Shown here piece by piece: positions 2,354 to 42,096 of a stretch of DNA of 64,000 bases. Each line of letters begins with the position of its first letter. Within the stretch, counting starts at the first letter, position 1. The stretch spans positions 1 through 64,000 of the IMG/VR virus record IMGVR_UViG_3300036770_008700, one strand, 5' to 3'. Position numbers and translations under genes: made by a program. This DNA comes from a virus. The notes below the pieces were generated by a model. It did not search any database and was not told the DNA's origin. It was given only the letters and a program-made list of their open reading frames with translations.

Positions 2354-2382
2354 TTTATTTCTTGTTTTATTCTTGATAATAT
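2354..2382 (+). promoter_or_regulatory. Promoter for a leaderless dnaE transcript
   Basis: TTTATT, 17 bp, TAATAT with extended -10 (TGA), then 6 nt (AGGATT) before ATG 2389. The predicted +1 is the A of the start codon. AGGA just before the ATG is too close to act as a normal Shine-Dalgarno site. Confidence 0.55.
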
Positions 2383-2388
2383 AGGATT

Positions 2389-4263
2389 ATGACAAACTCA
2401 ATCAAGCCTTCAAGGTTCGTAGGTCTTCACGCTCATAGCACAGTTGGGAGCATTGGAGATGCTATCGGCCTTCCACAAGAGCATATCGATTATGCTATTT
2501 CCAACAACATGGATGCTCTTGCTCTTACCGATCACGGTTCTATGGCTGGAGTATCTCACCAGCAAATCCATGCCAAGAAGCTCAAAGATAAGGGAGTTAA
2601 GTTTAAGTCTATTCCCGGCGTTGAAGCTTATTTCATCGATTCACTTTCTGAGTGGTCAAAGCTTGTTAAGATGCAAAAGGCCAACAAGGTTTTGGCCAAA
2701 GCTCTTGCTAATAATGAAACAATTGGAAATGAGCTAGCTGATACAGAAGCTGACATGGATGCCAAGCATGGCAAAGAAGTTTTGGAAGAGGAAGAAGGTG
2801 GAACTGTTGTAGAAATCGAAGCAGAATCAAAGAACAACAAGTTTTCTGATCCAATTGCTCAACGTAACCATATTGTTCTTCTGCCCAAGAACAATGCTGG
2901 GCTCAAGAGCCTTTTCCAAATGGTATCGGAAAGTTATATCGATGGCTTTTACCGTTATCCTCGCATTGACTTTGATATCCTAAAGCGTCATGCCAAGGGA
3001 AACATCATCGCTAGCTCTGCATGTATTGGTGGCCGTCTTGCAAAGGTTGTGTTTGATAATCAAGATCCTTCTCTTCAATGGAGAACCTGGGAAGTAACAA
3101 ACTATAATTTTGAAAAGATTCAATCTGAGCTTAAGAGCATTACAGATCGATTTGTTGATGCTCTTGGTGCACCAGAGAACTATTACATTGAACTCCAGAT
3201 GAATCGTCTTGTTCCTCAACATTTGGTAAATTATCATCTTATTGAGCTATCAAAGCGAACAGGACTTAAGCTTGTTGTTACCGTAGATTCTCACTATTCT
3301 AATCCTAATCACTGGAAGGAGCGTGAGGTTTACAAGGCTATGGCTTGGGCTTCAAAGACCAAGGGAACCATTGATCCCAACACTCTTCCTCAAACTGTTG
3401 AAGAGCTTAAGTGTGAGCTTTATCCAAAGAATGCCGATCAGCTTTGGAATACCTACCTTGAGCAAAAGGCGGTATATCCAGAACTTTATAACGACGATCA
3501 ACTTATTTGTGATGCTATTGAACGCACCCATGATATTGCTCACCAGCTTATTGGTGACGTTTCTGTTGACCGTTCTGTGAAGCTTCCCGGCATTGGTCGT
3601 CTTATTGAAAAGAATGCCCTAGAAAAGCTTCTAGAGGCTTCTACGGGCATGTCTGAGGATGATGTAGCATTCAAGCAGTTGGTGCAGCTAGCAATTAATG
3701 GTTTGCGTAACGTTGGACGCAATCATGATGATGTTTACATTAAGCGATTGAAGTATGAACTTGATACCATCAAGCATCTTCGCTTTGCAAAATACTTTCT
3801 CACATATCACAAGATTATGGATATTGCTGGAAAGGAAATGCTTATCGGGAATGGTCGTGGTTCTGCTGCTGGCTCGCTGCTATCATATGTTTTGAATATT
3901 ACGCAGGTTGATCCTATTCGTTTTGGTTTGCTATTCGAACGTTTCTTGGTTAAGTCTAAAAAGTGTTTGCTCCCCACTACTTATGTATTGGCACATGATC
4001 ATCGTCTAGTAACACTTAAAGATGTAAAAATGTTAAAAGATTTGGAAGTTGGGGATATGGTGTATACACATACAAAAGCATGGAAACCAGTTGTAAGCAA
4101 AGAAGAAACACTGCATAAAACACTTGTAGAATTTGAACTAGAAGACGGTACTATGCTTACAAGCAGCCCCAACCATCTTTGGATTGTTATTCGTGAAGGA
4201 AAAGAAATAGAGGTTAGGGCCGATGAAATCAGAGAAACCGACGAGTTTATTAAAATGCTGTAA
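2389..4263 (+). CDS. dnaE: DNA polymerase III alpha, N-terminal part fused to split-intein N-half
   Basis: 624 residues. Residues 1-525 are the N-extein: a PHP domain ([24 protein letters not shown], with further His/Asp metal ligands) followed by the start of the C-family polymerase domain ([16 protein letters not shown], then LLFERFL). Residues 526-624 are an intein N-half starting with Cys1 (CLLPTTYVL), with the GDMVYTH region and the block-B motif TSSPNHLW. The frame ends in a stop after 99 intein residues, so this is a complete gene, not a frameshift. The partner half is on the gene starting at 5130. The extein breaks directly before the catalytic PDIDSDF motif, so neither half should polymerise alone. 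Confidence 0.9.
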
Positions 4264-5258
4264 AAACTGTGGAAATGAGTTTGAGCTAATAATTCCAGAA
4301 AAAAATGGGAGTGGTAGCTCAAACTCACTTAGACGAGTTTTTTGCAATGACAAATGCAAAAATCAGTTTGGTAGGAATAAAGAAGAAGGAAAAGTAAATC
4401 GTATTTGCAAAATATGTGACAAAACTTTTCTTAGCTATCCTTCACAGAAACGCTCTTACTGTTCTAGAAAATGTCAAAATGAAAGTAAAAAAGTAGCACA
4501 CGTTGAAAGAAAGTGTGAATACTGTAATAGTATTTTTGAAGGCAAGCCAAGTGATTTGAATGTGTATTTCTGCTCTAGAGAATGCTTCCATAAAGCCGGA
4601 AGAGAAGTAAAAACTTGCATTACCTGTAAAAAACAGTTTGAAATAAAAAAATCTGATAATCATATTCAACGATGCAGTCGTCAATGTCAGTTCGTTGATC
4701 AGTCGAACGGTAAAATCAAAATACACCTAAATGGCAGAACAGGTTATCGCATTGATTTAGGAATGAAAGATTATTTCAAAAGTGCTCTAGAGGCAGATTA
4801 TGCAAGGTTCCTTGAATATTTTGGGATTCAATACATTTATGAAGGTAAAACGTTCCTAACAGCTATAGGGGCATATACTCCCGACTTCTTCTTGCCAGAA
4901 CTAAACTTATTTGTTGAACTCAAAGGTGTAGAGGATAATGGAAAACCATTCGAAAAAATGATGACAAAGAATCTTTTAAAGCACCAATCGGTACTAGAAC
5001 AAGCCAGCAAAATAATAACAATAACACAAAAAGAGTTTATAGCTGGAATAAAAGCTGCTAATCTATGGTCAACTATTCCCAACCTAGAACAAAGAAACTA
5101 TAAAAAAACAAAAGGATTGGTTGTCACATATGAAGATCAAACAAATCAACAAAGTAAACCTAGCAACTCCAATCAAGCTGGTTGATATTGGAGTTGAAGG
5201 CGATCACACGTTTTTTGTAAGCGACAAACCAAACGGAAACTTTTTCCTTACACATAAC
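3964..5258 (+). mobile_element. Split intein with nested endonuclease gene, inserted in dnaE
   Basis: The insert runs from intein Cys1 codon (3964) to the Asn codon before the +1 Ser (5259). It consists of IntN (99 residues plus stop), a separate endonuclease gene in another frame overlapping both intein halves, and IntC (about 43 residues ending HN). This is the fractured-gene arrangement known from environmental phage sequences: split inteins around a freestanding homing endonuclease. Lysine codons switch from mostly AAG in the exteins to mostly AAA in the insert. Confidence 0.88.
4223..5185 (+). CDS. Homing endonuclease nested in the split intein (zinc-finger array + PD-(D/E)XK)
   Basis: 320 residues. 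Four or five Cys4-type zinc fingers occupy residues about 12-155 ([32 protein letters not shown], each followed by a CSRxC-type pair). A nuclease domain follows: [15 protein letters not shown], then [18 protein letters not shown], the E...PD...ExK signature of Vsr-like PD-(D/E)XK enzymes such as the I-Bth0305I family. AGAGG lies upstream of the ATG. It overlaps IntN by 41 nt and the IntC gene by 56 nt (from the ATG at 5130). It presumably cleaves intein-free dnaE near the PDIDSDF codons (inference). Confidence 0.85.
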
Positions 5259-7370
5259 TCATTTCCCGACATTGATTCAGATTTTTCTGATCGTGATCGT
5301 GCTGTAAAACTTCTTATTGAGTTCTTCGGCAGCGAGAACGTTATTCCTGTAACCAACTTTGCACAGCTTCAACTTCGTTCTCTTATTAAGGATGTTGCAC
5401 GTTTGCACAATCTTCCATTTGAGACAATCAACGCTGCAACAGGAAAGATTGAGAAAGAAGTGTTGGATGTTGCCAAGCAAGTAGAAGGTTTTGACCGTGG
5501 CACATGGGTATTGACCTTTGAAGCTGCTATGAATGATAGTCCCACATTCCAAGAGCTTATGGAAACTTATCCAGAGTTTCAAACCACCATCAAGGTGCTA
5601 TTCAAGCAAATGCGTGGATTGTCTCGTCACGCTGGAGGAGTGATTATTACCGAGAACAGTCGTGAAGGTATGCCGCTTATCAAAGCTGGTGGTGAGCTAC
5701 AAACACCATGGCCAGAAGGTGTTAACTTTCGTCATCTTGAAGAGTTTGGTTTGCTGAAGTTCGATATTCTTGGACTTGGTACACTCCGTATGTTCGAACA
5801 ATGTGTGCGACGTATTCTGCAAAAGCAGGGCAACAAGCATCCAACTTTCAAACAAATCAAGCAATGGTTTTGGGATAACTTGCATCCAGACAACAATCTT
5901 ATGGATGATAAGAAGGTATACGAGCACGTTTTCTGGAATGGAAACTACACAGGAATCTTTCAGTTTATTAACGACAAAACACAAAACTTCATGCGTCACA
6001 TGAAGCCGAAGTCTGTAACAGATATTGCTGTAGCTACATCTATCTTTCGTCCTGGTCCTCTATCTCTCAAGGTAGATCAACGATTCTTGAATAACCGTTC
6101 TAATCCAGATTCGGTTGTATACAAGCATCCTCTTCTCAAAGAAGTGTTTGCTGAAACTTCTGGATTGCTTGTGTTTCAAGAGCAGCTTCAAATGATTTAT
6201 CACAAGCTCGCTGGTGTTCCTCTAGAGGACACAGACGGTATTCGTAAGGCATTTACCAAGAAGGAAATCAACAATAAGGAAAAGGCACAAGCAGAGCGTA
6301 ACAAGCTACGTCAAAGCTTTATTGATGCTTGCAACAAGGCTAATGGAATTGATGCCAAGGATTGTGGTGACATCTTTGATGAAATGGAAAAGCTTGTCGC
6401 TTATTCGTTCAATAAGTCTCACGCTGTATGCTACGCAATTACTACATGGCAATGCGCTTGGTTTCTAACCTATTATCCAGACGAATGGATTGCTACATAT
6501 ATTGATTATTGTGCAATTTCTAAGGGCAAGGTAACAGGCAAGGAAGATCCAAAGGCTATTGCGATTAAAGAAGCTAAGGCTCTTGGTTATGAGCTAACCA
6601 AGCCAGACATTAACGTGTCTGAATATGAGATTATCTCACATCCTGTTTTTGACAAGACTCTTGTGCCAAGCTTTAGCTCACTCAAGCATGTTGGTAAGAC
6701 TGCGGTTTCTGAGATTCAACAGTTTCGTCCATATAATTCTGTAAATGATTTGCTTGTTAATCCAGATGGTTCATGGAGACACAGCAAGTTTAACAAGAGT
6801 GCGTTGTCAGCGTTGATTAAGCTTGAGGCACTAGGTTCCATGAATATTGTTGGTGAAGGTAAGCTGTTTAAGAACTACAAGCAGGTTCATGCTGTTCTTG
6901 TAGAACGATATGACGAGTTTAAGCGTATTACCTCACGTAAGAAGAATAATGATATTGCTCAACCTCTTGCTGCTGCTATTGCAGAGGTTCAAGGCATGGA
7001 AGACTGGACCAAGGCAGAGAAGATGGAGTTTACCAAGGAGCTTGCTGGGTCTGTTGATTTTGATTTGCTTCTTTCCAAGGAAGCTCGTGAGAAGCTTGAT
7101 GAACTTGGTTTTGAATCTATTGATAACTGGAGTGAGAAGGGAAATTACTGGGCCATCGTGGCTTCTGCTGGTCTAGCTAAAACCAAAACAGGCAAGACTT
7201 ATCTTAAGCTTCGGTTGTTTGCTGAAGCTAACAAGGAAGTAACTTGCTTTATTTGGGGTTGGAGAGGTGAAGTAAACCTTGCGCAAAACGATGTTATTGT
7301 TGGATTGTTTGATAAAAGTGATTTTGGATTTTCTTGTTATCAGAACAAGATTTACAAGATTTCAAGCTAA
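5130..7370 (+). CDS. dnaE: DNA polymerase III alpha, split-intein C-half fused to C-terminal part
   Basis: 746 residues from ATG 5130 (a TTG nine bases upstream is possible). Residues 1-43 are Int[16 protein letters not shown] is block F and NFFLTHN is block G, ending in Asn with Ser as +1. The C-extein begins SFPDIDSDF, containing two catalytic aspartates, and continues through the polymerase palm/fingers (MRGLSRHAGGVII, ATSIFRPGPLSL, GLLVFQEQLQMI, AYSFNKSHAVCYA), a helix-hairpin-helix-like region, and an OB-like C-terminus (TCFIWGWRGEV). After trans-splicing the enzyme would be about 1,228 residues, normal for DnaE. Confidence 0.9.
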   Translation: MKIKQINKVNLATPIKLVDIGVEGDHTFFVSDKPNGNFFLTHNSFPDIDSDFSDRDRAVKLLIEFFGSENVIPVTNFAQLQLRSLIKDVARLHNLPFETINAATGKIEKEVLDVAKQVEGFDRGTWVLTFEAAMNDSPTFQELMETYPEFQTTIKVLFKQMRGLSRHAGGVIITENSREGMPLIKAGGELQTPWPEGVNFRHLEEFGLLKFDILGLGTLRMFEQCVRRILQKQGNKHPTFKQIKQWFWDNLHPDNNLMDDKKVYEHVFWNGNYTGIFQFINDKTQNFMRHMKPKSVTDIAVATSIFRPGPLSLKVDQRFLNNRSNPDSVVYKHPLLKEVFAETSGLLVFQEQLQMIYHKLAGVPLEDTDGIRKAFTKKEINNKEKAQAERNKLRQSFIDACNKANGIDAKDCGDIFDEMEKLVAYSFNKSHAVCYAITTWQCAWFLTYYPDEWIATYIDYCAISKGKVTGKEDPKAIAIKEAKALGYELTKPDINVSEYEIISHPVFDKTLVPSFSSLKHVGKTAVSEIQQFRPYNSVNDLLVNPDGSWRHSKFNKSALSALIKLEALGSMNIVGEGKLFKNYKQVHAVLVERYDEFKRITSRKKNNDIAQPLAAAIAEVQGMEDWTKAEKMEFTKELAGSVDFDLLLSKEAREKLDELGFESIDNWSEKGNYWAIVASAGLAKTKTGKTYLKLRLFAEANKEVTCFIWGWRGEVNLAQNDVIVGLFDKSDFGFSCYQNKIYKISS

Positions 7371-12438: not shown

Positions 12439-13686
12439 CTAATTGAATAAAATCGTTGAAAGATAAACGTGTTTTGATTCTCCCATCAAAAAATCCGCTG
12501 CCTTTTCTAACACTTCATCACTTGGTTCTTCATCACTTGTTTCCTTCATTTGTTTTTTAACAGCATCAACCAAGATCTTTAAAAGCTGCTTAACAACATC
12601 TTTTGCTGCCCCAGCATCTCCACCAGCAGCACGAATAAGCATCTCTGCATTAGAACCTTTTATCAAACCAACAATCGCCCCTGTAATCGAATCAAAGTTT
12701 TTAACCAACAAAGCTATAAAACTACTTTTGATTTCCAACAAAAACTCCTTGTATTCACGAAACAAACTTATTTTACCAGCAGCTTTTGCCGCTCCGTGTT
12801 TGATCGTGTTAACAATCTGCTGAACGAAATCAACAAGCACTTCAAAACTTAAACCACCAGAAGCTTGAGCCAAAGGTATCATCAACGTTATACCAACCGC
12901 TTCCATTGAAGCAGAGTTAAACGGAAACAAGGTTTCTACGATTTGTTGTTTTATCTTGTCGGATAGTAAATCTGTTATTGTTTTAAATGCATTTTCCACC
13001 AAGTTCGCCACGGTTTCTCTTGGATTCCCTCCAGAATCTTCACCTCCACCAGCAACAAGATTAGCGCCTTTTATAGCCGCACCAACAATGCCTTCCTTTA
13101 CTTGCTGCTGCGGTTGATTCGTTTGTGCAGGTTCTAAACCAGTGTTTATACCAGCTTGCTTGCAAGCTGTAACAATCTGATTGTATAAATTCACGTTCTT
13201 TGGATAAATCACCTTGAGAATCAAATTTAATACGTTTGCAACAAGTTGGGCCTTGCCATTCTCAATAAACTGCTTTGCCTTGTCAACACAATCAGTCATC
13301 CACTTATAAGCATTCCCAGCAAGTGAACTGATAAACTCCCAAATCTTTTTCCCAGCTTCACCAAGTTTACTTAAACCAACAAGAAAACTACCAGGAACAA
13401 GATTGCCAGCAATGTTCTTTATCCCATCTAAAAAACCTTTTGTTTTCTCTTTCGCTGAATTCCACCAACTCTTAACCGTAGAAGCTAATCCCTCAAACAA
13501 TAACAAATTACGATGCTCAGAAATAAAAGCTTTGCGATACCTTTTGTTGCAATAAAATTTTATCGCAATCCATTCCCGCTCCGCTAGTTTTTCATCAATC
13601 ATCATGGTCTTTTCATTAATGTCTTCTGGAGGATGCCTTGTCATGTTATAGCTAGATTCAGAAATCAATCTCTTTGATAACTTCAT
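12439..13686 (-). CDS. Large tagged, helix-rich hypothetical protein
   Basis: 415 residues from ATG 13686 (MKLSKRLISESS). The start is chosen by the tag and because the upstream leader is nearly identical to that of the gene starting at 14725. Residues 65-105 and several later stretches are amphipathic or glycine-rich helices (GFLDGIKNIAGNLVPGSF, AAIKGANLVAGGG, ITGAIVGLIKG), which could be membrane-active. An internal NLLLFEGLAS is a second LFE motif, like a protease processing site. Family not recognised. Confidence 0.65.
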   Translation of the reverse strand: MKLSKRLISESSYNMTRHPPEDINEKTMMIDEKLAEREWIAIKFYCNKRYRKAFISEHRNLLLFEGLASTVKSWWNSAKEKTKGFLDGIKNIAGNLVPGSFLVGLSKLGEAGKKIWEFISSLAGNAYKWMTDCVDKAKQFIENGKAQLVANVLNLILKVIYPKNVNLYNQIVTACKQAGINTGLEPAQTNQPQQQVKEGIVGAAIKGANLVAGGGEDSGGNPRETVANLVENAFKTITDLLSDKIKQQIVETLFPFNSASMEAVGITLMIPLAQASGGLSFEVLVDFVQQIVNTIKHGAAKAAGKISLFREYKEFLLEIKSSFIALLVKNFDSITGAIVGLIKGSNAEMLIRAAGGDAGAAKDVVKQLLKILVDAVKKQMKETSDEEPSDEVLEKAADFLMGESKHVYLSTILFN

Positions 13687-13786
13687 AAAGGTTAAATACA
13701 AAAGTTTCTCAAACATAAACAAAACTTCTAAGAAAAAACCTTTTGCGGAATACGGAAATCTAGCCCCTTCTGCTATGCTGAAACCA
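13684..13786 (-). repeat. Duplicated 5' leader, copy 1
   Basis: The region upstream of ATG 13686 is closely related to that upstream of ATG 14725. Shared blocks read on the minus strand: a pyrimidine-rich stretch around CTAG and CGCAAAAGG, AGTTTTGTTT, then GTATTTAACCTTTATG directly at the start codon. It may carry a common promoter (TATTTA 6 nt before ATG). Confidence 0.5.
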
Positions 13787-13796
13787 CTCAAATAAT

Positions 13797-14315
13797 TTAT
13801 AAACCTTCAGCGTTGTACTCCACCCCAGTTTCGTCAAACTCTTCTGCCTTCTCAACAACATCATCAACAAACTCAACATCATACCCATTCTGCTCCATAA
13901 ACCCAACAGCATCCGTTATCTGATCTTGCTTTATCGGTTCTTTGGGGCTAGAACTAACATACTCGTTACTATCTTCCAAATATCTAAAATCATCGCCGTC
14001 AAACACACTTAACCAAGCTTTATGGCTTCTTATCGCACGTTCATCTGATTTGTTGAAATACAACGTGTTATCTGTCCATATACGACTTACCTCTCTTGGT
14101 GCCATATATGGAACAACATCTCTCTTGTCTCCAACAGCAAACAATACTTTGCTTTTATGCATTCCTTCTGGAACTTCTTCATCCTCTCCAGCTAAACCAG
14201 ATTCAATCCAATCTGGAGAATGATGATAAGTTCTTAATGAACCACCAAAACTCTTGATCTTGTCAGAGTCCAAACGGTATACATCACTCTCAAACAATAT
14301 CTTTGATAGTTTCAT
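13797..14315 (-). CDS. Tagged hypothetical protein, possibly ART-like
   Basis: 172 residues from ATG 14315 (MKLSKILFESDVYRLD); an in-frame upstream start lacks the tag. SLRTYHHSPDW, KVLFAVGDKRDVVPYMAP, and SNEYVSSSPKEPI form a pattern seen in phage domains with an ADP-ribosyltransferase-like arrangement (His/Arg strand, central strand, late Glu), but the evidence is weak. The acidic C-terminus is probably flexible. It overlaps the upstream gene by 4 nt, so translation is likely coupled. Confidence 0.6.
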   Translation of the reverse strand: MKLSKILFESDVYRLDSDKIKSFGGSLRTYHHSPDWIESGLAGEDEEVPEGMHKSKVLFAVGDKRDVVPYMAPREVSRIWTDNTLYFNKSDERAIRSHKAWLSVFDGDDFRYLEDSNEYVSSSPKEPIKQDQITDAVGFMEQNGYDVEFVDDVVEKAEEFDETGVEYNAEGL

Positions 14316-14725
14316 TTTGCCTTGTACCTCAACTCCCATACTTCTAAAGGAATCTTCTTGTAGTTAGCATATGTAACTCTTCCCCTGCCATCTCCAACCA
14401 TAGAAAAGTTATCTCCAGTAACCACAACAATAGGAGGTGGAGTGTTCCCCCATGTGTCCGATAACTTCTTCCATCTCTCCCCACGAAATGACTTTAACTC
14501 ATCTTCGTCTTCAACATCTTCCATCCATGAATCAATGTCATCGTACTGCTTTAAATCATCCACAGAAAGCATACCAAGATAGTTTAACTCGAAATCTGAA
14601 CGTGAGGTATCATCACTGAACTCTTCTGGATATGTTTCCATAGCCGTTTCTATCGCATCATCTACATCCGAAACTTTAGGTGGCCTCTGTGATTCTACCT
14701 CAAACAATATCTTTGATAACTTCAT
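14312..14725 (-). CDS. Tagged hypothetical protein with GDGRGRVTYA motif
   Basis: 137 residues from ATG 14725 (MKLSKILFEVESQR). Residues 20-90 are highly acidic. The C-terminal 40 residues contain PPIVVVTGDNFSMVGDGRGR and VTYAN, a strand-turn-strand pattern similar to small ParB/sulfiredoxin-like phage domains in which a DGRGR loop is conserved. No catalytic assignment is made. It is the first gene of a minus-strand group that runs down to 12439. Confidence 0.6.
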   Translation of the reverse strand: MKLSKILFEVESQRPPKVSDVDDAIETAMETYPEEFSDDTSRSDFELNYLGMLSVDDLKQYDDIDSWMEDVEDEDELKSFRGERWKKLSDTWGNTPPPIVVVTGDNFSMVGDGRGRVTYANYKKIPLEVWELRYKAK

Positions 14726-14858
14726 AAAGGTTAAATACAAAAAGTTTCCCAAGAAATTTTTTCCCCAAAAAAATTTTTGAACCACAAACAAAACTTCCAA
14801 GAAAAAAACCTTTTGCGAGTTGCGGGGATCTAGCCCCTTCTGCTGCTGAAACCCCTGC
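14723..14858 (-). repeat. Duplicated 5' leader, copy 2
   Basis: Related to 13684-13786, with an extra 30-odd bp of A/T-rich sequence inserted in the middle. Both copies end with GTATTTAACCTTTATG at the start codon, and both contain AAAAGGTTTTTT-like tracts upstream on the minus strand. Confidence 0.5.
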
Positions 14859-16585: not shown

Positions 16586-16626
16586 GTGATATCACCATAT
16601 AGGAAAGATTCTTGTGATTATATCTC

Positions 16627-18043: not shown

Positions 18044-18067
18044 TCTGACGACGAGTGTTTCAGTTTT

Positions 18068-27261: not shown

Positions 27262-27267
27262 GGTTAT

Positions 27268-28054: not shown

Positions 28055-28066
28055 GTGTCATTGCTT

Positions 28067-28258: not shown

Positions 28259-28300
28259 TTTTGTTTCTCCTTGTTCAAGTTGTTGTAAGTAAGTAAAGTT

Positions 28301-28477: not shown

Positions 28478-28481
28478 CTTG

Positions 28482-28799: not shown

Positions 28800-29106
28800 C
28801 TTGCTCCCATTCCTGTGTGCTTAAATAAATCGTGCCAATACTGGAATCTTCCAATAAAGCTATGACCCTACAGGAATTCTTTCCACTAAGCAAACTTCCA
28901 TTATGATGTGCTTTGTGCACTTCCAACACAACAATCCTTGAATCTAATGGAAAGTACTTGTAATCAACAACATCAATTTTGTAATACCTGTCATACCTGT
29001 CGAAAGAGATGTAGTGCACAAGATAACCTTTTTCGCCTGCTAGCCGATTATTTTGGATAGTTTTTTTTGCAGCGGCTGTTAAACCATACATCTTTCCAAC
29101 CATCAT
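28780..29106 (-). CDS. KLY family protein, divergent
   Basis: 108 residues: VGKMYGLT, helical AAKKTIQNNRL, RIVVLEVHK, VIALLEDSSIGTI, and a tail STQEWEQVE like its downstream neighbour. It overlaps the upstream gene by 4 nt. Confidence 0.65.
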   Translation of the reverse strand: MMVGKMYGLTAAAKKTIQNNRLAGEKGYLVHYISFDRYDRYYKIDVVDYKYFPLDSRIVVLEVHKAHHNGSLLSGKNSCRVIALLEDSSIGTIYLSTQEWEQVESIQV

Positions 29107-29417
29107 AGCTTACTCAACCTAACAACATTATCATAAGACCAAGGAGCGTGGTATGCATACCTAATCCAACCAATACCTCCAGAACTTAAAACCTTTACAA
29201 CTCTTTCTTCAACATCCAAAGGAACAAATAAATCGTCTGGCAAAAGAATTGAAATATTCGTGCCATAATAGTTTTTCAACTGTTTTGCTATGTGATTTGC
29301 ACTTTCTAAGTCATCATGATATGTGCCTGCCTTAGTACCATTGGCACATGCTAGCTTTTTGTCCTCATAACACAACCAATAATGAGTTTTAAATTTGTAA
29401 AGTTTTCCTACTTGCAT
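29103..29417 (-). CDS. KLY family protein
   Basis: 104 residues: VGKLYKFKTHYWLCYEDKKL, LFVPLDV, VKVLSSGGIGWI. With its upstream neighbour it belongs to the same subfamily as the 24182 and 40883-42061 genes (HYW/YFW after the first strand), but its linker is not GC-rich. Confidence 0.7.
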   Translation of the reverse strand: MQVGKLYKFKTHYWLCYEDKKLACANGTKAGTYHDDLESANHIAKQLKNYYGTNISILLPDDLFVPLDVEERVVKVLSSGGIGWIRYAYHAPWSYDNVVRLSKL

Positions 29418-29692
29418 ACAATTTCCTCAAAATATGGAAAACACCAGTCGTGATATGCAATCCAACCAATATCTCCATTTGGCAGCAGAACTTCTTTGCA
29501 AAGATTTCCCTCCTTAAGCAACACAACTACATCATTTGGTTTAAGATAGCTTGTGTGTGCGTTGAATTCCTTGGTCATCAAAGTAGATTCATAAACTGAA
29601 TAAGCACTAGGAGCAACCATTGCCATATGCCTATCAGGAAACACATACCAATAATGTCTCTTCACAGAATATAGCTTTCCAATGTTATCCAT
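29408..29692 (-). CDS. KLY family protein
   Basis: 94 residues: IGKLYSVKRHYWYVFPDRHM, VVVLLKE, KEVLLPNGDIGWI. First gene of a minus-strand operon, with a leaderless-type promoter. It overlaps the next gene by 10 nt. Confidence 0.7.
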   Translation of the reverse strand: MDNIGKLYSVKRHYWYVFPDRHMAMVAPSAYSVYESTLMTKEFNAHTSYLKPNDVVVLLKEGNLCKEVLLPNGDIGWIAYHDWCFPYFEEIVCK

Positions 29693-29698
29693 AGTATC

Positions 29699-29727
29699 AG
29701 TTTAGCATATTAGACAGTTTATCTAAA
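29699..29727 (-). promoter_or_regulatory. Leaderless-type promoter
   Basis: TTTAGA, 17 bp, TAAACT with GC (not TG) before it, then GATACT and ATG 29692. Confidence 0.65.
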
Positions 29728-29738
29728 GAAATTAAGTT

Positions 29739-29828
29739 TTAGCATCGTGCGAAATAAATCCCAGCAGCATATGCACAAATAATTATGCATATAAAGGCTA
29801 TAACGCTGAGTTCATTACGAAATGTCAT
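29739..29828 (-). CDS. Tiny membrane protein
   Basis: 29 residues, start overlapping the upstream stop (ATGA), so probably translationally coupled. Almost all of it is one transmembrane helix (LSVIAFICIIICAYAAGIYF) with a basic end. Function unknown. Confidence 0.55.
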   Translation of the reverse strand: MTFRNELSVIAFICIIICAYAAGIYFARC

Positions 29829-30022
29829 GTAGAAACAATGATTTCTGTATCTTCTGTGATTGTGATTTGAGTTAGTGGAGTCAAAACAACACTTAGTTTT
29901 GGTGCATTTAATGGCCCACCACGAGCTATCGTAACCCTGCAAACTTTGTTGTTGTAGGTGATTAACTCACCTTCCGCAAGATGAGCATTAATCAGATCTT
30001 TTTGCTTTTCATATCTGCGCAT
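29825..30022 (-). CDS. Small basic beta-rich protein
   Basis: 65 residues with a strong AGGGAGG ribosome site. A basic N-terminal helix (RRYEKQKDLINAHLAEGE) leads into strands (ELITYNNKVCRVTIARGG, KLSVVLTPL). Family not recognised. Confidence 0.6.
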   Translation of the reverse strand: MRRYEKQKDLINAHLAEGELITYNNKVCRVTIARGGPLNAPKLSVVLTPLTQITITEDTEIIVST

Positions 30023-30326
30023 TGTTACCTCCCTCTACTTTTACCAAAGCTAAACCGTAAAATGACATACGATTTAACATGTACGTGCTTATACTTCCAA
30101 CAGTGCCATTAGGAAGCAAAAAATTTGCTTTATCAACTTCGGTTGAACCTAAATACAACACCAACTGCCCAATGTTGATATAAGACATATTGTAGTTATG
30201 TTTAATGTCATGAAAGCCTAATGAGTTATCTTTCCACAATACTTCTGTTTTTTTCCTCCTAAGTTCATAAAGAGAACCTGGAGTTTCTTTGCAATTGAAA
30301 TCAATAACACGTTTTTTTTGTTTCAT
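30009..30326 (-). CDS. KLY family protein, divergent
   Basis: 105 residues: PGSLYELR, QLVLYLGS, NFLLPNGTVGSI. It begins with a basic MKQKKRV. Assignment to the family rests on the three-block order only. It overlaps a tiny Cys-rich membrane gene by 26 nt. Confidence 0.6.
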   Translation of the reverse strand: MKQKKRVIDFNCKETPGSLYELRRKKTEVLWKDNSLGFHDIKHNYNMSYINIGQLVLYLGSTEVDKANFLLPNGTVGSISTYMLNRMSFYGLALVKVEGGNNAQI

Positions 30327-30435
30327 GACACTTACAACAACATTTCTGATTGGTTACTAGTGGACAAGTAAAAACCCACATTAGGAAAAAACAAATAGCA
30401 CCCGCTATCGATAATGCCGTTTGCATGGTCGTCAT
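30301..30435 (-). CDS. Tiny membrane protein with cysteine-rich tail
   Basis: 44 residues. A hydrophobic helix (about 7-26: ALSIAGAICFFLMWVFTCPL) is followed by KCCCKCHETKKTCY, with five Cys and one His. It is reached from a promoter with extended -10 TGGTATAAC 12 nt upstream, so the leader would be only about 6 nt. Possibly a membrane-anchored metal-binding peptide. Confidence 0.5.
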   Translation of the reverse strand: MTTMQTALSIAGAICFFLMWVFTCPLVTNQKCCCKCHETKKTCY

Positions 30436-30471
30436 GATCTTAACTAGGTTATACCATCCAGATATTCAAAA

Positions 30472-30813
30472 CTATAAATTTTCCTCAAAGTCCTCAATAC
30501 GATATTCACGAAAATATATTCCAAGTATTTTTAAGTCATCGTCATGCAGTGATAACCAACATAACACACCATTACAAGTCAATATCTTGTAATCATACAT
30601 TGGATCGGTGTCGCTATAACGATAATCACTCAATAATCGTTCTAAAAACACAAATGGTTCTAATGGATATAATGGAATTAACTTGCTGGTTTTATTCAAC
30701 TCTGGACGATTGAGATAAGCTGGCCATGCACCAGAATTCGTGCTAGGATTTCCATGCAAAATATAGAGTTTGCCAGGAATTAGTTTAGAACTTTGAATTC
30801 CCTTGTTAGTCAC
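30472..30813 (-). CDS. KLY family protein, GTG start
   Basis: 113 residues: PGKLYILH, PFVFLERL, YKILTCNGVLCWL. GTG 30813 almost abuts the upstream stop (TGATGTG), so re-initiation is likely. Its C-terminus extends further than in most members (EYRIEDFEENL). Confidence 0.65.
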   Translation of the reverse strand: MTNKGIQSSKLIPGKLYILHGNPSTNSGAWPAYLNRPELNKTSKLIPLYPLEPFVFLERLLSDYRYSDTDPMYDYKILTCNGVLCWLSLHDDDLKILGIYFREYRIEDFEENL

Positions 30814-30814
30814 A

Positions 30815-31105
30815 TCATATAACTATACTGAAACTTTTACCGTAATCAATCCCACGAATTTTTGAAAACGTAATGTAATACAAATTTCCATCCTCAAACA
30901 AGATTTTGTAGGAATCCCATACAGACCCTAAATTGTCCACATACTCAATTGCTACAAATGTATTGGATGGATCTAAATACCTTCCTTTCACTACCGCAAA
31001 ACATTCATTCTTTAAAACATAAAATGGCCAAGCAACATCTTGTTCAATGTTTTTATACATCTTTCCAAGCTTAAACAAGTCGCTGTTGTTTTTAATCTTT
31101 GTCAT
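30815..31105 (-). CDS. KLY family protein
   Basis: 96 residues: LGKMYKNI, TFVAIEY, YKILFEDGNLYYI. It shares KNI, SW(D)SYKILFEDGNLY with the next upstream gene, a recent duplicate pair. It overlaps that gene by 14 nt. Confidence 0.7.
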   Translation of the reverse strand: MTKIKNNSDLFKLGKMYKNIEQDVAWPFYVLKNECFAVVKGRYLDPSNTFVAIEYVDNLGSVWDSYKILFEDGNLYYITFSKIRGIDYGKSFSIVI

Positions 31106-31358
31106 TAGACATAATCTCTCGAAATAGAATGTCGAAGTTATGTGTGTCTTTTTTAAAAGTTATCTGATACAGATTTCCATCCTCAAACAAGATTTCGTAG
31201 GAATCCCATGTATAGTTAGGGTAATGTTTAAACCCCAAAACCACGAAACAATTGCCTGGATTTAGATAACCAAGTATTTTTTGGTAATCCAAAGAATACA
31301 ATGTCCAAGACGAGCATTCAGTTATATTTTTATACAACTTACCAATCTTGAGTGACAT
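31092..31358 (-). CDS. KLY family protein
   Basis: 88 residues from ATG 31358, supported by GAAAGG upstream. Motifs: IGKLYKNI, CFVVLGF, YEILFEDGNLYQI. It is the duplicate partner of the downstream gene; nucleotide similarity is obvious in the segment encoding SYEILFEDGNLY. Confidence 0.7.
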   Translation of the reverse strand: MSLKIGKLYKNITECSSWTLYSLDYQKILGYLNPGNCFVVLGFKHYPNYTWDSYEILFEDGNLYQITFKKDTHNFDILFREIMSNDKD

Positions 31359-31363
31359 ACCTT

Positions 31364-31693
31364 TCAGCCCCAACAAATTCTTTCTGAGTCATCAAACACA
31401 ACCAAAAGCCTGCTAATTTTACCTTTAAGTGAAATACAAATTTCAAAACAGTTTGTTTTGACATTGAATTGCATCATATCAATCACAGAAAGTGCTCTAA
31501 TGCAATTCTTTCGGAATGTGTCACCGTCCAAATCACCAAACATATCGTGATTATCTGGTCCACACATTCCCATCAACATTAGAATGCCATATGCGTTATG
31601 ATTGTTAAAGTTGACTTCGGTGCCCCCGCCAACTTGATCTCCATCATCATTGTATACCGCTGGATTGTTCGGGTCAAAGAATGTTACTGACAT
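31364..31693 (-). CDS. Hypothetical protein
   Basis: 109 residues, not of the KLY family. MSVTFFDPNNPAVYNDDGDQ and an Asn/Gly-rich stretch precede MCGPDNHDMFGDLDGDTFRK and C-terminal strands (ISRLLVVFDDSERICWG). The acidic loop could bind calcium. Family not recognised. Confidence 0.6.
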   Translation of the reverse strand: MSVTFFDPNNPAVYNDDGDQVGGGTEVNFNNHNAYGILMLMGMCGPDNHDMFGDLDGDTFRKNCIRALSVIDMMQFNVKTNCFEICISLKGKISRLLVVFDDSERICWG

Positions 31694-31694
31694 A

Positions 31695-32015
31695 TTAGAT
31701 TATCCTTTTCCAGTCGCCTGGAAACCAAATTATCCATCCACAGCTACCATCCTCAGTCAACACCTTTATGAAGTTTTGACGAATTACACCGTTTTCCTTC
31801 AAATCAAATTCTAACACAACGTTATTCAAATACACAACGTTTTTGTTTTTTTCTATCAAAGCTATCATTGAGTAACTGCAATGATCTAAATCATAAAAAT
31901 GGATTAAGTGTTCAAAGGTGAGCAGCTCCCGCAACGTCAAGCTTTCATATAGCTTGCCGGGAATCATTGGATTCTTTTGCCATTTAGCTAGCTCTCGTTG
32001 AAACAGATAACTCAT
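31695..32015 (-). CDS. KLY family protein
   Basis: 106 residues: PGKLYESL, NNVVLEFD, IKVLTEDGSCGWI, with an extra N-terminal helix (SYLFQRELAKWQ). It follows the tiny zinc-ribbon gene after about 19 nt. Confidence 0.65.
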   Translation of the reverse strand: MSYLFQRELAKWQKNPMIPGKLYESLTLRELLTFEHLIHFYDLDHCSYSMIALIEKNKNVVYLNNVVLEFDLKENGVIRQNFIKVLTEDGSCGWIIWFPGDWKRII

Positions 32016-32034
32016 TTTATCGTCTATGGCTAAT

Positions 32035-32202
32035 TTACTTCAATGTAGATACTTCAAAACTATAACCACACTTCTCACAAGCTAGCTTTGTTTTAGTTTT
32101 GTCAAGCTTCATCATGTGCTGCAACGCACATTCAGTGTTGTTGCTGTTCATGCGCTTAATTAGGCCAGACGCAGCGTTACTAGCAAATATCGTTGTTTCC
32201 AT
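32035..32202 (-). CDS. Tiny zinc-ribbon-like protein
   Basis: 55 residues with AAAGAG upstream of ATG. A helical N-terminus (SGLIKRMNSNNTECALQHMM) leads to CEKCGYSFEV, half of a zinc ribbon; a distant Cys and His may complete the site. Function unknown. Confidence 0.55.
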   Translation of the reverse strand: METTIFASNAASGLIKRMNSNNTECALQHMMKLDKTKTKLACEKCGYSFEVSTLK

Positions 32203-32218
32203 ACTTTCTCTTTCATAT

Positions 32219-32602
32219 TCAAATTTTCTTGCGTTGGCTTTTAGTAACCTTGCGAATGTTTGCTTCCATCAAAGCTAGCTCACCAACCTCTACATTCTTT
32301 CCAGCTTCCGCATGACGCTTCTTGAGATGATAGCTCTTGTGACAACTAGAATGACACAACACCATCCCAGCCACATATTCAAGATTCTCCCAATCATCAA
32401 CCTCTCGTGAGCCGATCACGTGATGCAATGTAAGACTTTTACCGGGATAACGAGGATTGTAACCTTCTGCCAACGAACCTCCACAAATCGCACAAGGATG
32501 CATTCTAATGACAAACTGCATAATCCAGTCAAGCTGCTTAACCTTGCTCGTCACAGACCCCTTGCGACGTACAACAGCCTTCTTGACAATATCCTTTTTC
32601 AT
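32219..32602 (-). CDS. HNH endonuclease-like protein
   Basis: 127 residues. CAICGGSL and CHSSCHKSYH frame LTLHHVIGSREVDDWENLEY, giving the Cys-supported HNH fold with HH as the first catalytic motif and Asn in WENLEY. Both termini are basic. It has a leaderless-type promoter, so unlike the late-region endonucleases it is probably expressed early. Either a homing enzyme or a DNA-degrading/packaging-type HNH. Confidence 0.8.
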   Translation of the reverse strand: MKKDIVKKAVVRRKGSVTSKVKQLDWIMQFVIRMHPCAICGGSLAEGYNPRYPGKSLTLHHVIGSREVDDWENLEYVAGMVLCHSSCHKSYHLKKRHAEAGKNVEVGELALMEANIRKVTKSQRKKI

Positions 32603-32608
32603 ACCAAA

Positions 32609-32637
32609 AGAATATCACAGTAAATAGATTATCTAAA
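32609..32637 (-). promoter_or_regulatory. Leaderless-type promoter
   Basis: TTTAGA, 17 bp, TATTCT with TGA before it, then TTTGGT and ATG 32602. Confidence 0.7.
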
Positions 32638-32938
32638 GATTTAGGTTGATTTTTTTTGGATTAACTTTTTTCCAGTAACCTAAACCAGCTTCGCTAACTT
32701 GTATCCACACTGGACATGCATCGCCAGTTAATACCTTCATCCAGTAATAGTTTACAGATGATGTTGTATACTCAGATATCGATGGCCATATGTCAGCTTG
32801 ATTTTTAATCTCAAGCAAAACAACATATGAACCATCTTCAATATGAACACGATCAAAGTAGTATGAAACACTGCCTGGATTGCCAACATGACCATGAAAC
32901 TTCCAGGGCGCTTTATACAACTTTCCTATCTCCAACAT
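32633..32938 (-). CDS. KLY family protein
   Basis: 101 residues from ATG 32938 (MLEIGKLYKAP); an in-frame ATG at 32953 would add MKKTK. Motifs: IGKLYKAP, YVVLLEI, MKVLTGDACPVWI. Neither start has a clear ribosome site. It lies just downstream of the amidoligase gene and may be co-transcribed with it. Confidence 0.65.
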   Translation of the reverse strand: MLEIGKLYKAPWKFHGHVGNPGSVSYYFDRVHIEDGSYVVLLEIKNQADIWPSISEYTTSSVNYYWMKVLTGDACPVWIQVSEAGLGYWKKVNPKKINLNL

Positions 32939-32994
32939 CTTGGTTTTCTTCATTTGACTGGTAAAAGTAATCAGTAATGTTAAGTAACTTACCT

Positions 32995-34062
32995 TCACAT
33001 AGAAAGGTTCTGAGCCGTGAATCCAGAAAGCTCTTGAATACGCTCCACGTAATAAGCCTTGAGAGACTTGCTAATACCCCGCCAAACTTCATCGGCAACT
33101 GTGGCAGTTGTACGAAGAGAGGTAGGAGTAGGGTCAACACGAGGCTGTGCATACGGGTTGGTAATAGTATAAGACGGATTAGTGTTACCACGCTGGCCGG
33201 GAAGCTTCTTGATAAGAATTCCATGCATGGTCTTGAGTTGTGAGATAGCAACCTTGATACTGCTAGGAGCAAGACCACTGCGATTAGCAATCGTAGCAAG
33301 AAACAACGTGCCACCACCATTGCGGTGACTTGCCATAAACACATCATAAACCTTCTGGCAACCAGAAGTCATGCCAATCCAAGACGCACGAGGACGACCA
33401 CGGCGAGCAGCAGGTTGAGCAACAGTCGCAGCAGAACCCTTTGAAGCTTTAATAAAGGATGAAAGAAATTCAACCCAATTCAGAATGGTATCACCATTGA
33501 TAGAACCAGAATGCTGGCGAAATTCAATCGTGTTATGCTTGGCAAGCGCATGAAGGTTAACCTTGTAATAACGATCAGGCAAAACACGCTGGAGAGCGTG
33601 CATAGTTTGGCAACTTTCAACCATATTAACTACATTAGAACCGCCCTTTGTGTAATACACATCAGAACCACGACGATTGGTAGGCATCATAAGATCAATG
33701 GTGCTCTCAAATTTAGTGTAACGATGGAAAACAGTCTTAACCTCTTCAACGCTAAGATCGCTTGCGTCAATATGAACATGCAATCCACAACTGCGATTAA
33801 CGAATGCACCCATCGCTTGAAGTGTTGCACATACCTTGCGCACAGTGCGCAAATCAGAAGCCTCTTCGGTGTCAAGAACAGGAGACACAAGCTCCATGCT
33901 GAAAAAACCATCAACATCAGACAATGAACCATCGTGCACAATACGCCATTCCGTACCATACCACTTTTCAATCATCAACCCACGCACATGCTTGCGCAAA
34001 TTCTCCACAGTGTTGAGAACGTTCTTGGGGCTGTAGAACTCGATCTCAATTCCGAACTTCAT
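32995..34062 (-). CDS. Amidoligase with AT-hook and winged-helix-like C-terminus
   Basis: 355 residues. Residues 1-205 match the amidoligase (COOH-NH2 ligase, ATP-dependent) family: FGIEIEFYSP at the start, GLHVHIDASD in the middle, and NTIEFRQHSGSIN near the end. These enzymes are thought to join amino groups to carboxylates of peptides or cell-wall components. Residues 218-225 hold RRGRPR, an AT-hook core. Residues 230-290 resemble a winged helix (TLFLATIANRSGLAPSSIKV). A ligase fused to DNA-binding elements is unusual. GC-richer than the neighbours. Confidence 0.75.
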   Translation of the reverse strand: MKFGIEIEFYSPKNVLNTVENLRKHVRGLMIEKWYGTEWRIVHDGSLSDVDGFFSMELVSPVLDTEEASDLRTVRKVCATLQAMGAFVNRSCGLHVHIDASDLSVEEVKTVFHRYTKFESTIDLMMPTNRRGSDVYYTKGGSNVVNMVESCQTMHALQRVLPDRYYKVNLHALAKHNTIEFRQHSGSINGDTILNWVEFLSSFIKASKGSAATVAQPAARRGRPRASWIGMTSGCQKVYDVFMASHRNGGGTLFLATIANRSGLAPSSIKVAISQLKTMHGILIKKLPGQRGNTNPSYTITNPYAQPRVDPTPTSLRTTATVADEVWRGISKSLKAYYVERIQELSGFTAQNLSM

Positions 34063-34068
34063 ACAACT

Positions 34069-34097
34069 AGAATACCAAACGTTAAGAAATTTCTAAA
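34069..34097 (-). promoter_or_regulatory. Leaderless-type promoter of amidoligase gene
   Basis: TTTAGA, 17 bp, TATTCT with TGG before it, then AGTTGT and ATG 34062. It overlaps the inverted repeat AACGTTAAGA (34078-34087) / TCTTAACGTT (34116-34125), whose left arm lies in the spacer and right arm upstream of -35, an operator-like layout. Confidence 0.7.
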
Positions 34098-34125
34098 GGA
34101 ATTCTTTCTTTTTTATCTTAACGTT

Positions 34126-40841: not shown

Positions 40842-40882
40842 AATGGTGACTCCTTACGCTAAGTTATCACACACGTTTTTCT

Positions 40883-41185
40883 TTATAAACCAATATCAAA
40901 ACATTCATTATCACACCAATCATCAGGAACAAAAATCCATCCAAGCTGTCCATTGTTTGAAAGAACTTTTAAACAATTTCTATCTCGCTCAATCAAACAG
41001 AATATACTCTTTGGTTCAAGATAAGAAACGTTGCAGTTTAAATGAAATGAATAATATTTGGCTGCATCGCTGGTGTCTCGAAGACTACATCGTCGAATAG
41101 CAATGCTGCTGTGTAGGATACTATCTTTTGAAGGATACAACAACCAAAAGTATTCCTTGATTTGATAAAGCTTTCCAACATTCAT
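40883..41185 (-). CDS. KLY family protein
   Basis: 100 residues: VGKLYQIKEYFWLLYPSKDS, NCNVSYLEPKSIFCLIER, LKVLSNNGQLGWI. Last of four tandem, closely related members. Its linker is not especially GC-rich. It overlaps the upstream member by 4 nt. Confidence 0.75.
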   Translation of the reverse strand: MNVGKLYQIKEYFWLLYPSKDSILHSSIAIRRCSLRDTSDAAKYYSFHLNCNVSYLEPKSIFCLIERDRNCLKVLSNNGQLGWIFVPDDWCDNECFDIGL

Positions 41186-41475
41186 TGGTTTACTTCCTCA
41201 ATATAGTTCTTGTCCTTGTAAAAATCAGAAAGATAAATCCAACCAAGCTCACCATTAGTTGAAAGGATTTTACAGAACTTACCATCTTGCTCCAAAAAAC
41301 AGAAAATGCTTTTTGGAGAAATATATGAAACGTTGCAGTTATATTCCTTGCTATAATAAGCGGCGGCGGAGGCGGTGGTGTCGAGGGAGGCGAAGAGGAA
41401 GGCGTCAGCAATATCCTTTGAAGGATAAAGTAACCAAAAATACTTCTTGACTTGATAAAGCTTTCCGATGTTCAT
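41182..41475 (-). CDS. KLY family protein with GC-rich linker
   Basis: 97 residues: IGKLYQVKKYFWLLYPSKDI, an Ala/Thr linker (ADAFLFASLDTTASAAAYY) encoded by GC-rich DNA at 41360-41411, NCNVSYISPKSIFCFLEQ, CKILSTNGELGWI. Four-base overlaps on both sides. Confidence 0.78.
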   Translation of the reverse strand: MNIGKLYQVKKYFWLLYPSKDIADAFLFASLDTTASAAAYYSKEYNCNVSYISPKSIFCFLEQDGKFCKILSTNGELGWIYLSDFYKDKNYIEEVNQ

Positions 41476-41768
41476 TGATTTACTTCCTCAATATCGGCTT
41501 TGCACCAATCAGCAAGATTAATCCAACCAAGTTCTCCATTAGTTGAAAGAATCTTGCAACAATACCCATCTTGTTCCAAGAGCATAAAAATGCTGTTTGG
41601 AAAAATATATGAAACGTTGCAGTTGAAACGCTTGCTATAATAATCAGCGCCCTCTACGGCTTCGGTGAAGGAGGCTCCAGCAACAGCGGGGTAGGTGGCG
41701 ACTTCATCCTTTGAAGGAAAAAGAAACCAAAAGTATTTCTTGGCTTGATAAAGCTTTCCAACATTCAT
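41472..41768 (-). CDS. KLY family protein with GC-rich linker
   Basis: 98 residues: VGKLYQAKKYFWFLFPSKDE, a linker TYPAVAGASFTEAVEGADYY (GC-rich DNA at 41646-41702), NCNVSYIFPNSIFMLLEQ, CKILSTNGELGWI. Outside the linker it is nearly identical to its neighbours. Confidence 0.78.
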   Translation of the reverse strand: MNVGKLYQAKKYFWFLFPSKDEVATYPAVAGASFTEAVEGADYYSKRFNCNVSYIFPNSIFMLLEQDGYCCKILSTNGELGWINLADWCKADIEEVNQ

Positions 41769-42061
41769 TGATTTACTTCCTCAATGCAACCCTTTGCCCA
41801 ATCTTTATTTTTTGGATAAATGATCCAACCAAGTTCTCCGTTGGTTGAAAGAATCTTGCAAAATCGTCCATCTTGTTCCAAAAAACAGAAAATGCTTTTT
41901 GGAGAAATGTATGAAATATTGCATTTGAAATACGTGCTCCAATAATCAGCAACAGCGGCGGTGGCGGCGGCGGCCAGATCGTCTTCGGCGGCAGCAATCT
42001 CCTTTGAAGGAAAAAGGAGCCAAAAATACTCCTTGACTTGATAAAGCTTTCCAACATTCAT
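41765..42061 (-). CDS. KLY family protein with GC-rich linker
   Basis: 98 residues from ATG 42061, fixed by a leaderless-type promoter. VGKLYQVKEYFWLLFPSKEI, an Ala-rich linker (AAAEDDLAAAATAAVADYW; GC-rich DNA at 41950-41997), CNISYISPKSIFCFLEQ, CKILSTNGELGWI. First gene of the four-member cluster. Confidence 0.78.
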   Translation of the reverse strand: MNVGKLYQVKEYFWLLFPSKEIAAAEDDLAAAATAAVADYWSTYFKCNISYISPKSIFCFLEQDGRFCKILSTNGELGWIIYPKNKDWAKGCIEEVNQ

Positions 42062-42067
42062 GAATCC

Positions 42068-42096
42068 AGTATACCACATGGAAAAATGAATATAAC
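42068..42096 (-). promoter_or_regulatory. Leaderless-type promoter of KLY cluster
   Basis: GTTATA, 17 bp, TATACT with TGG before it, then GGATTC and ATG 42061. The -10 and spacer end resemble those of the 24517 promoter, whose gene is the closest relative outside the cluster. Confidence 0.65.

Follow-up and report, generated by a model that had tools for sequence, protein, structure and literature searches.

How does a phage begin translation of genes whose promoters leave no room for a leader in front of the start codon? This question is raised by the IMG/VR virus record IMGVR_UViG_3300036770_008700 (122,895 bases, record label G000), of which bases 1-64000 form the stretch analysed here, called the window. 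A preliminary description of the window had listed 16 genes in which a -10 box ends exactly 6 nucleotides (nt) before the start codon, so that the predicted first transcribed base falls on the start codon itself. This observation is confirmed, lies far above chance and reaches wider than first reported. The σ70-type promoters of this phage clade very probably fire at the A of the AUG and would give leaderless mRNAs. The relatives are labelled G001-G011; those found through the polymerase and a 1249-aa open reading frame (ORF) were searched as whole records. L-numbers denote loci (L005/L009 in G001/G005; L006 and L019-L021 in G002; L007 in G003; L018 in G009; L023/L028 in G010; L044 in G011; L045 in G004).

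Promoters adjoining start codons

The 16 reported starts can all be found, together with the sequence upstream of each; 15 are ATG and one is GTG, and all lie on the minus strand except the one at 2389, which is on the plus strand. The hexamer at -12 to -7 fits TANNNT in 14 of them, the exceptions being 21997 and 24790, which have TATAAC. TG is found at -15/-14 in all sites but 21997 (15/16), and a -35-like TTTA, TTGA or GTTA stands at 17 or 18 bp in 15 of the 16, the exception being 19165, where TTTA is nearer by 4 nt. The -35 spacing and TGn occur together at 14 of the window sites, as in σ70 promoters with an extended -10 element. Three further genes that had been assigned a 12-nt gap (20116, 30435 and 39716) match their description, the ORF at 30435 having merely 44 aa.

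We searched the window for the layout pattern CTTTA-N16-TGNTATNNT-N6-ATG with at most two mismatches and compared the result with 100 dinucleotide shuffles. The window contains 17 matches, against a shuffle mean of 1.11 and a maximum of 6. In 13 of the 17 the final ATG is that of a listed gene; the remaining four (562, 18824, 20120, 58265) lack the terminal ATG, and the starts 19165, 21997 and 23018 are missed at this mismatch limit. A count that demanded no -35 and used no matrix gave a similar picture. Over the whole record, TGNTANNNT stands at -12 of 16 of the 401 candidate ORF ATGs, compared with a background of 1.3 per offset at -20 to -59 and one occurrence each at -11 and -13. For the window alone the count is 13 of 229 against 0.75, and for the remaining record 3 of 171 against 0.57. 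In the genome-wide check of -10-to-start distances that the preliminary description had proposed, the exact 6-nt phase stands well above the other-offset background.

A matrix built from the 16 window sites was run on the remaining 58.9 kb of the record, which had not been used for the matrix. Fifteen sites score at least 12. Four of these have ATG precisely at +1, compared with 0.23 for each other offset (p 8e-5), and among the eight sites that score 14 or more the number is two (p 0.01). Peaks of ATG at offsets -16 and -11 in the matrix scan arise, we think, from the motif's own TG. Three of the four +1 ATGs (113268, 106734 and 100589) head ORFs, which have 371, 184 and 64 aa, and the fourth, at 121160, opens an ORF of only 20 codons. 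The leaderless-type layout genes of G000 thus number 19, with 16 in the window and three in the remainder.

It is conceivable that chance plus selective reading produced the original list, since the sites had been chosen by eye. This explanation is countered by the shuffles, by the reversed-pattern and offset controls, by the unread half of the record and by the other genomes described below; for the sequence pattern it is refuted, and we consider it extremely improbable overall.

Occurrence in related phages

The whole records were scanned with the TTTA-type pattern at no more than one mismatch, with the reversed pattern as control. G000 yields 16 matches (two without an ATG end) and G002 (260 kb) 25, all with ATG. 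Fewer were found in G001 (five, one with GTG), G003 (three, one with ATC), G005, G009 and G010 (two each); G001 and G005 have sites in common and are not independent. The scan gave no match in G004, G006, G007, G008 and G011. The reversed pattern had no match in any of the 10 records of the main scan.

Within 74 kb of G002, the matrix places ATG at +1 for 21 of 41 sites, the figure for each other offset being 0.68. The stretches L019-L021 (19 of 34 sites) had been picked after their pattern matches were known, and in L006, fetched without the pattern, the count is two of seven. Other loci fetched without the pattern gave four of 10 (G001) and three of nine (G003). L018 and L023/L028 were fetched by the pattern, so that their matrix counts are not independent, and a count of 14 of 58 over the relatives' loci includes L005 and L009 with their shared sites as well as some ATGs that open very short ORFs. 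When the viral collection was scanned with the pattern, without a shifted-gap control, 19 stretches in 14 contigs matched. Among the 13 stretches outside G001 and G002, nine head ORFs of at least 122 aa and four head ORFs of 6-18 codons, which look like chance.

The Thermus phage φYS40 offers an outside control: most of its middle and late mRNAs are reported to be leaderless, with initiation factor (IF) 2 going up and IF3 down in the host (PMC3594737, citing Sevostyanova et al. 2007). Counted without the matrix in the first 50 kb of each genome, TANNNT at -12 occurs nine times in φYS40 against 3.0 expected from the background, and twice in T4 against 5.4. The 6-nt phase, the record's unread half, the relatives and the φYS40/T4 controls all support the leaderless placement, as do the orthologues.

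Orthologues keep the spacing

Twenty-two genes were queried against the relatives. The start rule is permissive (it asks for TA at -12 and T at -7 no more than 15 codons away), and a relative was counted only if it also had a TTTA or TTGA -35. Ten genes have a relative with the layout, and for four (18268, 21997, 23018 and 42061) relatives without it are seen. Eight G000/G002 pairs could be compared base by base; they were selected for having the layout, and the 17966 pair was matched by eye. Bases agree at 45 of 48 positions in the -10 core, 41 of 48 in the -35 region and 72 of 112 in the spacer. The sequence of the 6-nt gap is identical at 21 of 48 positions, and its length is always 6. Where the length of the N-terminus shifts, the -10 moves with the ATG: by -7 codons at 25178, +3 at 32602, +1 at 106734 and +2 in the dnaE of L007. 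The amidoligase promoter adjoins the ATG in four phages, with proteins 68% (G002), 43% (G003) and 37% (G011) identical to that of the window. We regard the orthologue data as the strongest evidence that selection would be keeping the spacing to the start codon.

A distant relative with a different -35

G011 (86.5 kb) is a distant relative whose amidoligase is 37-41% identical to that of the window and whose promoters carry TTGAC in place of TTTA. Its locus was fetched by the amidoligase and not by the pattern, and TANNNT lies at -12 in 11 of its 76 candidate starts, against 1.7. TGn is often absent from G011 sites, and mostly absent in the amidoligase locus. In the whole of G011, TTGAC-N18-TANNNT-N6-ATG has 38 exact matches, all forward and all in the first 44 kb, and the reversed control has none. 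Within the first 46 kb, 50 of the 144 plus-strand TTGACs have ATG at the +1 position (the next highest offset has 10), compared with none of 69 on the minus strand. Forty-eight of the 50 hexamers start with TA, the commonest being TAAGGT (22) and TATAAC (7). The fraction of ATGs that head ORFs of 50 aa or longer is 0.92 for these 50 and 0.26 for 1094 plus-strand ATGs; in 48 of the 50 cases the ATG is the first one in frame within 120 nt. The geometry is the same whether the -35 is TTTAGA or TTGAC, which is what σ70-type promoters would be expected to show. The TARRRT -10 of G011 together with TTGAC presumably resembles actinobacterial promoters.

The frequency of TAAGGT raises another explanation, namely that the element at -12 to -7 is a Shine-Dalgarno (SD)-type site and not a -10 box, with transcripts beginning further upstream. 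TAAGGT (at 18268 and 19165, and commonest in G011) contains UAAGG, which could pair with the anti-SD at a workable distance, and TAGGAT (three of 50 in G011) likewise contains AGGA. However, 14 of the 16 window hexamers (TATTCT, TATACT, TATAAC and others) and 26 of the 48 TA-type hexamers of G011 are not TAAGGT, it is the initial TA that is nearly fixed, and a -35 at 17 bp accompanies the hexamers. Since TATTCT, TATAAC and similar hexamers are unable to double as SD sites, this explanation is a minor rival, which we consider very improbable.

Two predicted start modes behind one promoter

The same promoters are also found with short leaders. A set of G000 sites without ATG at +1 (18826, 19711, 40854, 99487, 102256 and 103587; also 12427 in L021 of G002) have a purine start and 13-23 nt of SD-like leader before the ATG. 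One had been reported as a near-identical copy of the 17966 promoter, and indeed the two differ at one of 70 upstream bases and are identical at 75 of 80 positions over -70 to +10. In the copy (18827-18862, minus strand), ATC stands at +1, followed by an SD-like leader with AAAGGA ahead of ATG 18806. Two other minus-strand promoters of the same type contrast with the leaderless layout: one (40855-40890) precedes a 13-nt SD leader and ATG 40841, the other (19712-19747) an 18-nt purine-rich leader and ATG 19693. Among the 35 TTGAC plus TANNNT rows of G011 without a +1 ATG, 19 have their first ATG 13-35 nt further on and 16 do not.

The mode also changes between relatives. Gene 18268 is leaderless-type in G000 (promoter 18269-18304, minus strand, -10 TAAGGT) and SD-led in L044 of G011. 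Gene 102240, conversely, has an SD leader in G000, and its G002 partner (L021 8525, paired by eye) is leaderless-type; the G000 gene is tRNA_Me_trans/MnmA-like, and the partner carries a QueC-like PHROG label. Since the same promoters feed short SD-like leaders elsewhere, the two modes appear to be interchangeable modules. Promoter geometry, phase, conservation and these apparent mode changes can all be read in the DNA.

Proposed mode of expression

From this arrangement we infer the actual 5' ends, the use of host σ70 and the mode of translation. The preliminary description called the genes early and implied that the host or a phage factor favours a 5'-terminal AUG; both are further inferences. 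The promoter would consist of a TTTAGA- or TTGAC-like -35, a 17-bp spacer, usually TGn, and TANNNT, with the A of the AUG as first transcribed base. Host σ70 holoenzyme, or less likely a phage σ factor, would initiate at this A, and genes directly behind such promoters would be made from leaderless mRNAs. On these, 70S ribosomes presumably start at the 5'-terminal AUG without an SD, and downstream genes of the same transcripts may use SD sites or overlapping stop/start coupling. The genes with the layout are replication-type and small accessory genes.

That a phage-encoded σ factor and not host σ70 reads these promoters is unlikely. Genes for σ70 region 2 are present in four of eight records (G002, G003, G004 and G010), a 259-aa ORF of G002 matches PHROG 351, sigma factor, and the TTTAGA -35 is not canonical. 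Yet when the G002 σ protein was scanned against all of Pfam, region 2 was found and region 4 was not; as the -35 of these promoters stands at a constant distance, this protein is a poorer candidate. The region 4 family PF04545 was over the cut-off in none of 10 records (weak in G004; G010 was not searched). Furthermore, G011 uses TTGAC, and G004 has a σ gene and no TTTA-type match; G000 and G011 show no σ gene, but may be fragments. The G002 protein may serve other genes. σ70-family proteins of 242-292 aa with a region-2 match lie at L074 1193-1972, L075 735-1463 and L076 920-1798; the one in L074, scanned against all Pfam families, has no match to region 4, and a role as late-gene σ is possible.

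SD sites were compared over a list of 144 genes, completed by hand because automatic calls under-called small genes. Eighteen genes satisfied the layout rule used here, among them 113306-116734, which is not claimed as a case; 21997 and 24790 escaped it. SD 5-mers at -20 to -5 are found in none of the 18 and in 47 of the 126 others (Fisher p 0.0007), a contrast that is partly by construction, since the promoter occupies the same space upstream of the start. An SD 4-mer is present in five of the 18, which we attribute to overlap with the promoter. These numbers bear on the possibility that the promoters are real but leaderless transcripts minor, most protein being made from read-through operon mRNAs. 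Short intergenic gaps and overlapping genes would fit such a scheme. On the other hand, the layout genes have no strong SD, so that a read-through message would offer ribosomes no obvious place to start, and promoter-like sites are dense in G011 (50 adjoining an ATG and 35 other TTGAC/TANNNT rows in 46 kb). We therefore consider a predominance of read-through improbable.

Leaderless mRNAs are mostly taken by 70S particles, and in vitro they benefit from IF1, IF2 and additional initiator tRNA; the effect of IF3 is dual, and inhibitory when it is raised (PMC9031893). No IF3 gene was found in G000 or G002, and among nine records only G004 has one. S21 was found in none of the nine records searched, and RNA polymerase (RNAP) β/β' in none of eight. 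The genes found give no support to a phage translation factor that would explain the pattern; IF1 and IF2 were not searched for. The IF3-bearing G004 has no TTTA-type and two TTGAC-type matches. The gene in question lies in L045 (C1:27182-27430 of the 320-kb G004) and encodes a protein with the IF3 C-terminal domain (E 3.5e-21).

A search for the host, with a profile of the 1249-aa ORF against GTDB genomes, confirmed none of 83 stretches as relatives. The strict promoter-ATG pattern was also sought in genome contigs and matched in 21 stretches, seven of them one repeated element in Streptococcus merionis. Ten of the other 14 head ORFs shorter than 60 codons, and four (L050, L053, L066 and L067) head longer ones. 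None of the 21, which are stretches without annotation, was recognised as the window's phage. In L050, from the metagenome-assembled genome 'bacterium isolate Co_bin.90', neighbouring ORFs at 1212 and 2172 have nearly the same TAGAAATAGGG...TGGTATACT-N6-ATG promoters, and one of the two ORFs begins like a prepilin.

Several results weigh against the proposed leaderless expression. Eight of the 22 queried genes gave no usable relative, and the G002 relative of 21997, 48% identical, is without the layout. In G003, TGNTANNNT is equally frequent at -13 and -12 (three each), an exception to the exact phase. The matrix found no sites at all in the G004 loci and five in those of G006, none of them with the signal. 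Pooling G004, G006, G007 and G008 gives one TGNTANNNT at -12 against 0.33, and plain TANNNT at -12 reaches only nine against 5.0; the G007 and G008 loci, fetched around the presumed structural ORF, may lack the relevant genes. Codon usage shows a weak trend only, the second codon being AAN in nine of 18 layout genes and 36 of 126 others. The upstream gene is 31-59 nt away at nine of the 18 flagged genes, where read-through would add leadered mRNAs. Finally, the TAAGGT hexamers (two sites in the window and 22 of 50 in G011) could pair with the anti-SD if transcription began upstream.

Gene content and further features of the window

The DNA polymerase III-type replicase is divided among ORFs at 2389-7370. 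Its N-terminal dnaE ORF (ATG 2389) follows a leaderless-type promoter at 2353-2388 on the plus strand, and the orthologues in L005/L009, L006 and L007 share the layout. Named-phage DnaE matches are all below 60% identity, and about 24-29% among the matches listed. The PHP/N-terminal ORF has 624 aa with a weak intein-splicing match at its end, an ORF at 4223-5185 lies between the halves, and the C-terminal ORF is 5121-7370; the dnaE of L006 and L007 is a single ORF (1227 and 1221 aa). In G001 and G005 (L005 1686, L009 6362) the leaderless-type dnaE start opens a 35-codon ORF, and the bulk of dnaE restarts downstream after a second N-terminus-like stretch, as if an insertion had occurred.

The other 15 of the 16 reported promoters are housed in a minus-strand cluster of small genes at about 15-42 kb. 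Several precede genes with a recognisable product. The promoter at 17967-18002 adjoins ATG 17966 of a KaiC/RadA-like ATPase, whose G002 counterpart (L020 7534, the pair matched by eye) has the same layout. ATG 25178 (25179-25214) begins a protein with a cREC_REC domain, for which the G002 start lies seven codons upstream with the layout kept. ATG 25821 (25822-25857) opens an exonuclease-like gene, its RNase_T match being assigned by eye, and ATG 32602 (32603-32638) one with a weak HNH match. The Amidoligase_2 gene at ATG 34062 (34063-34098) has the layout in G002, in G003 (L007, without TGn) and in G011 (L044).

Promoters also adjoin ATG 21275 (21276-21311), GTG 23018 (23019-23054), ATG 24790 (24791-24826, -10 TATAAC, with a G002 orthologue) and ATG 27261 (27262-27297, TTGACT -35). 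At ATG 19165 (19166-19201) the -10 is TAAGGT and the -35 is displaced by 4 nt. The promoter at ATG 21997 (21998-22034) is weaker, with TATAAC, no TGn and an 18-bp spacer. At ATG 20116 the same promoter type (20117-20158) is followed by the 6-nt leader AAGAAC.

Three promoters precede small proteins of a GKLY type: those at ATG 24517 (24518-24553), whose paralogues start at the same residue, ATG 29692 (29693-29728) and ATG 42061 (42062-42097), with a very similar promoter in L018 of G009. Many look-alike proteins of about 100 aa and of the form GKLY...VLLE...KVLT.G..GW are encoded on the minus strand at 15644-32998 and 40883-42061, and their genes frequently overlap by a few bases. The two that were scanned (24182-24517 and 41765-42061) have no Pfam and no PHROG match. 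A different arrangement is seen at the minus-strand genes 12439-13686 and 14312-14725, which have a common upstream block (13687-13731 and 14726-14770) that ends in TTTTGTATTTAACCTTT-ATG. The block has no clear SD and may represent a second promoter or start type.

The large lower-strand ORFs from 43 kb onward we take for structural genes, judging by their size and order. Baseplate-type PHROG matches are present among 45 further record proteins that were scanned, and the large window ORFs themselves are mostly without a family match in Pfam and PHROG. The presumed structural 1249-aa ORF (52619-56368) has no Pfam, PHROG or named-phage match.

Relation to known systems and biological meaning

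Leaderless phage genes are already known (λ cI, φYS40), and what looks unusual here is their systematic use. Like φYS40, the present phages have the leaderless-type layout in many genes (19 genes in G000, 25 matches in G002 and 50 sites in G011), and the TANNNT signal at -12 is seen in the first 50 kb of φYS40 too. The two differ in that middle and late mRNAs are concerned in φYS40, whereas here they would come from replication-type and small accessory genes, and in that most sites in the window phage have a full promoter with -35, 17-bp spacing and TGn. The leaderless mRNA of λ cI likewise has a 5'-terminal AUG, but concerns one gene and not dozens (PMC9031893). A paper on the giant phage AR9 remarks that phage transcripts 'are often leaderless' (PMC5312081). 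AR9 is also a large phage, with mapped promoters; it differs in its leaders of 26-491 nt and in having its own RNAPs (PMC5312081), while no RNAP β/β' match was found in eight records here.

Outside phages, a TA-like signal marks bacterial leaderless genes some 12 bp ahead of their start (PMC3160421), and in Deinococcus the motif of -10-adjacent ORFs lies about 6-7 bp from the ORF (PMC12340547). The window phage resembles them: TANNNT occurs above background about 12 bp upstream, there is no SD in the 6-nt gap, SD-led genes coexist and related genes change mode. The bacterial cases come from cellular genomes and are most frequent in Actinobacteria and Deinococcus-Thermus; the gap of about 6-7 bp in Deinococcus is almost always 6 here, G003 excepted. 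Our searches of open-licence papers showed no phage clade described with this arrangement, and φYS40 was the sole phage they showed with leaderless mRNAs as a system.

A more far-reaching proposal, for and against which we lean equally, is that this clade of large environmental phages has part of its genome made up of self-contained promoter-AUG cassettes. Each genome would have dozens of genes (in G011, about 48 within 46 kb) with a σ70-type promoter of their own fused to the start codon. SD-dependent 30S initiation would be bypassed, and behind an unchanged promoter the mode could be switched between leaderless and SD-led by few base changes.

Most work on leaderless translation concerns individual genes or groups such as Actinobacteria, Deinococcus and archaea. 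A phage clade that relies on leaderless starts for dozens of genes, with related genes changing mode behind one promoter, would show by natural variation under what conditions a 5'-terminal AUG is enough. Gene callers would need a promoter-aware start model for such genomes, and the pattern points to hosts with strong leaderless initiation.

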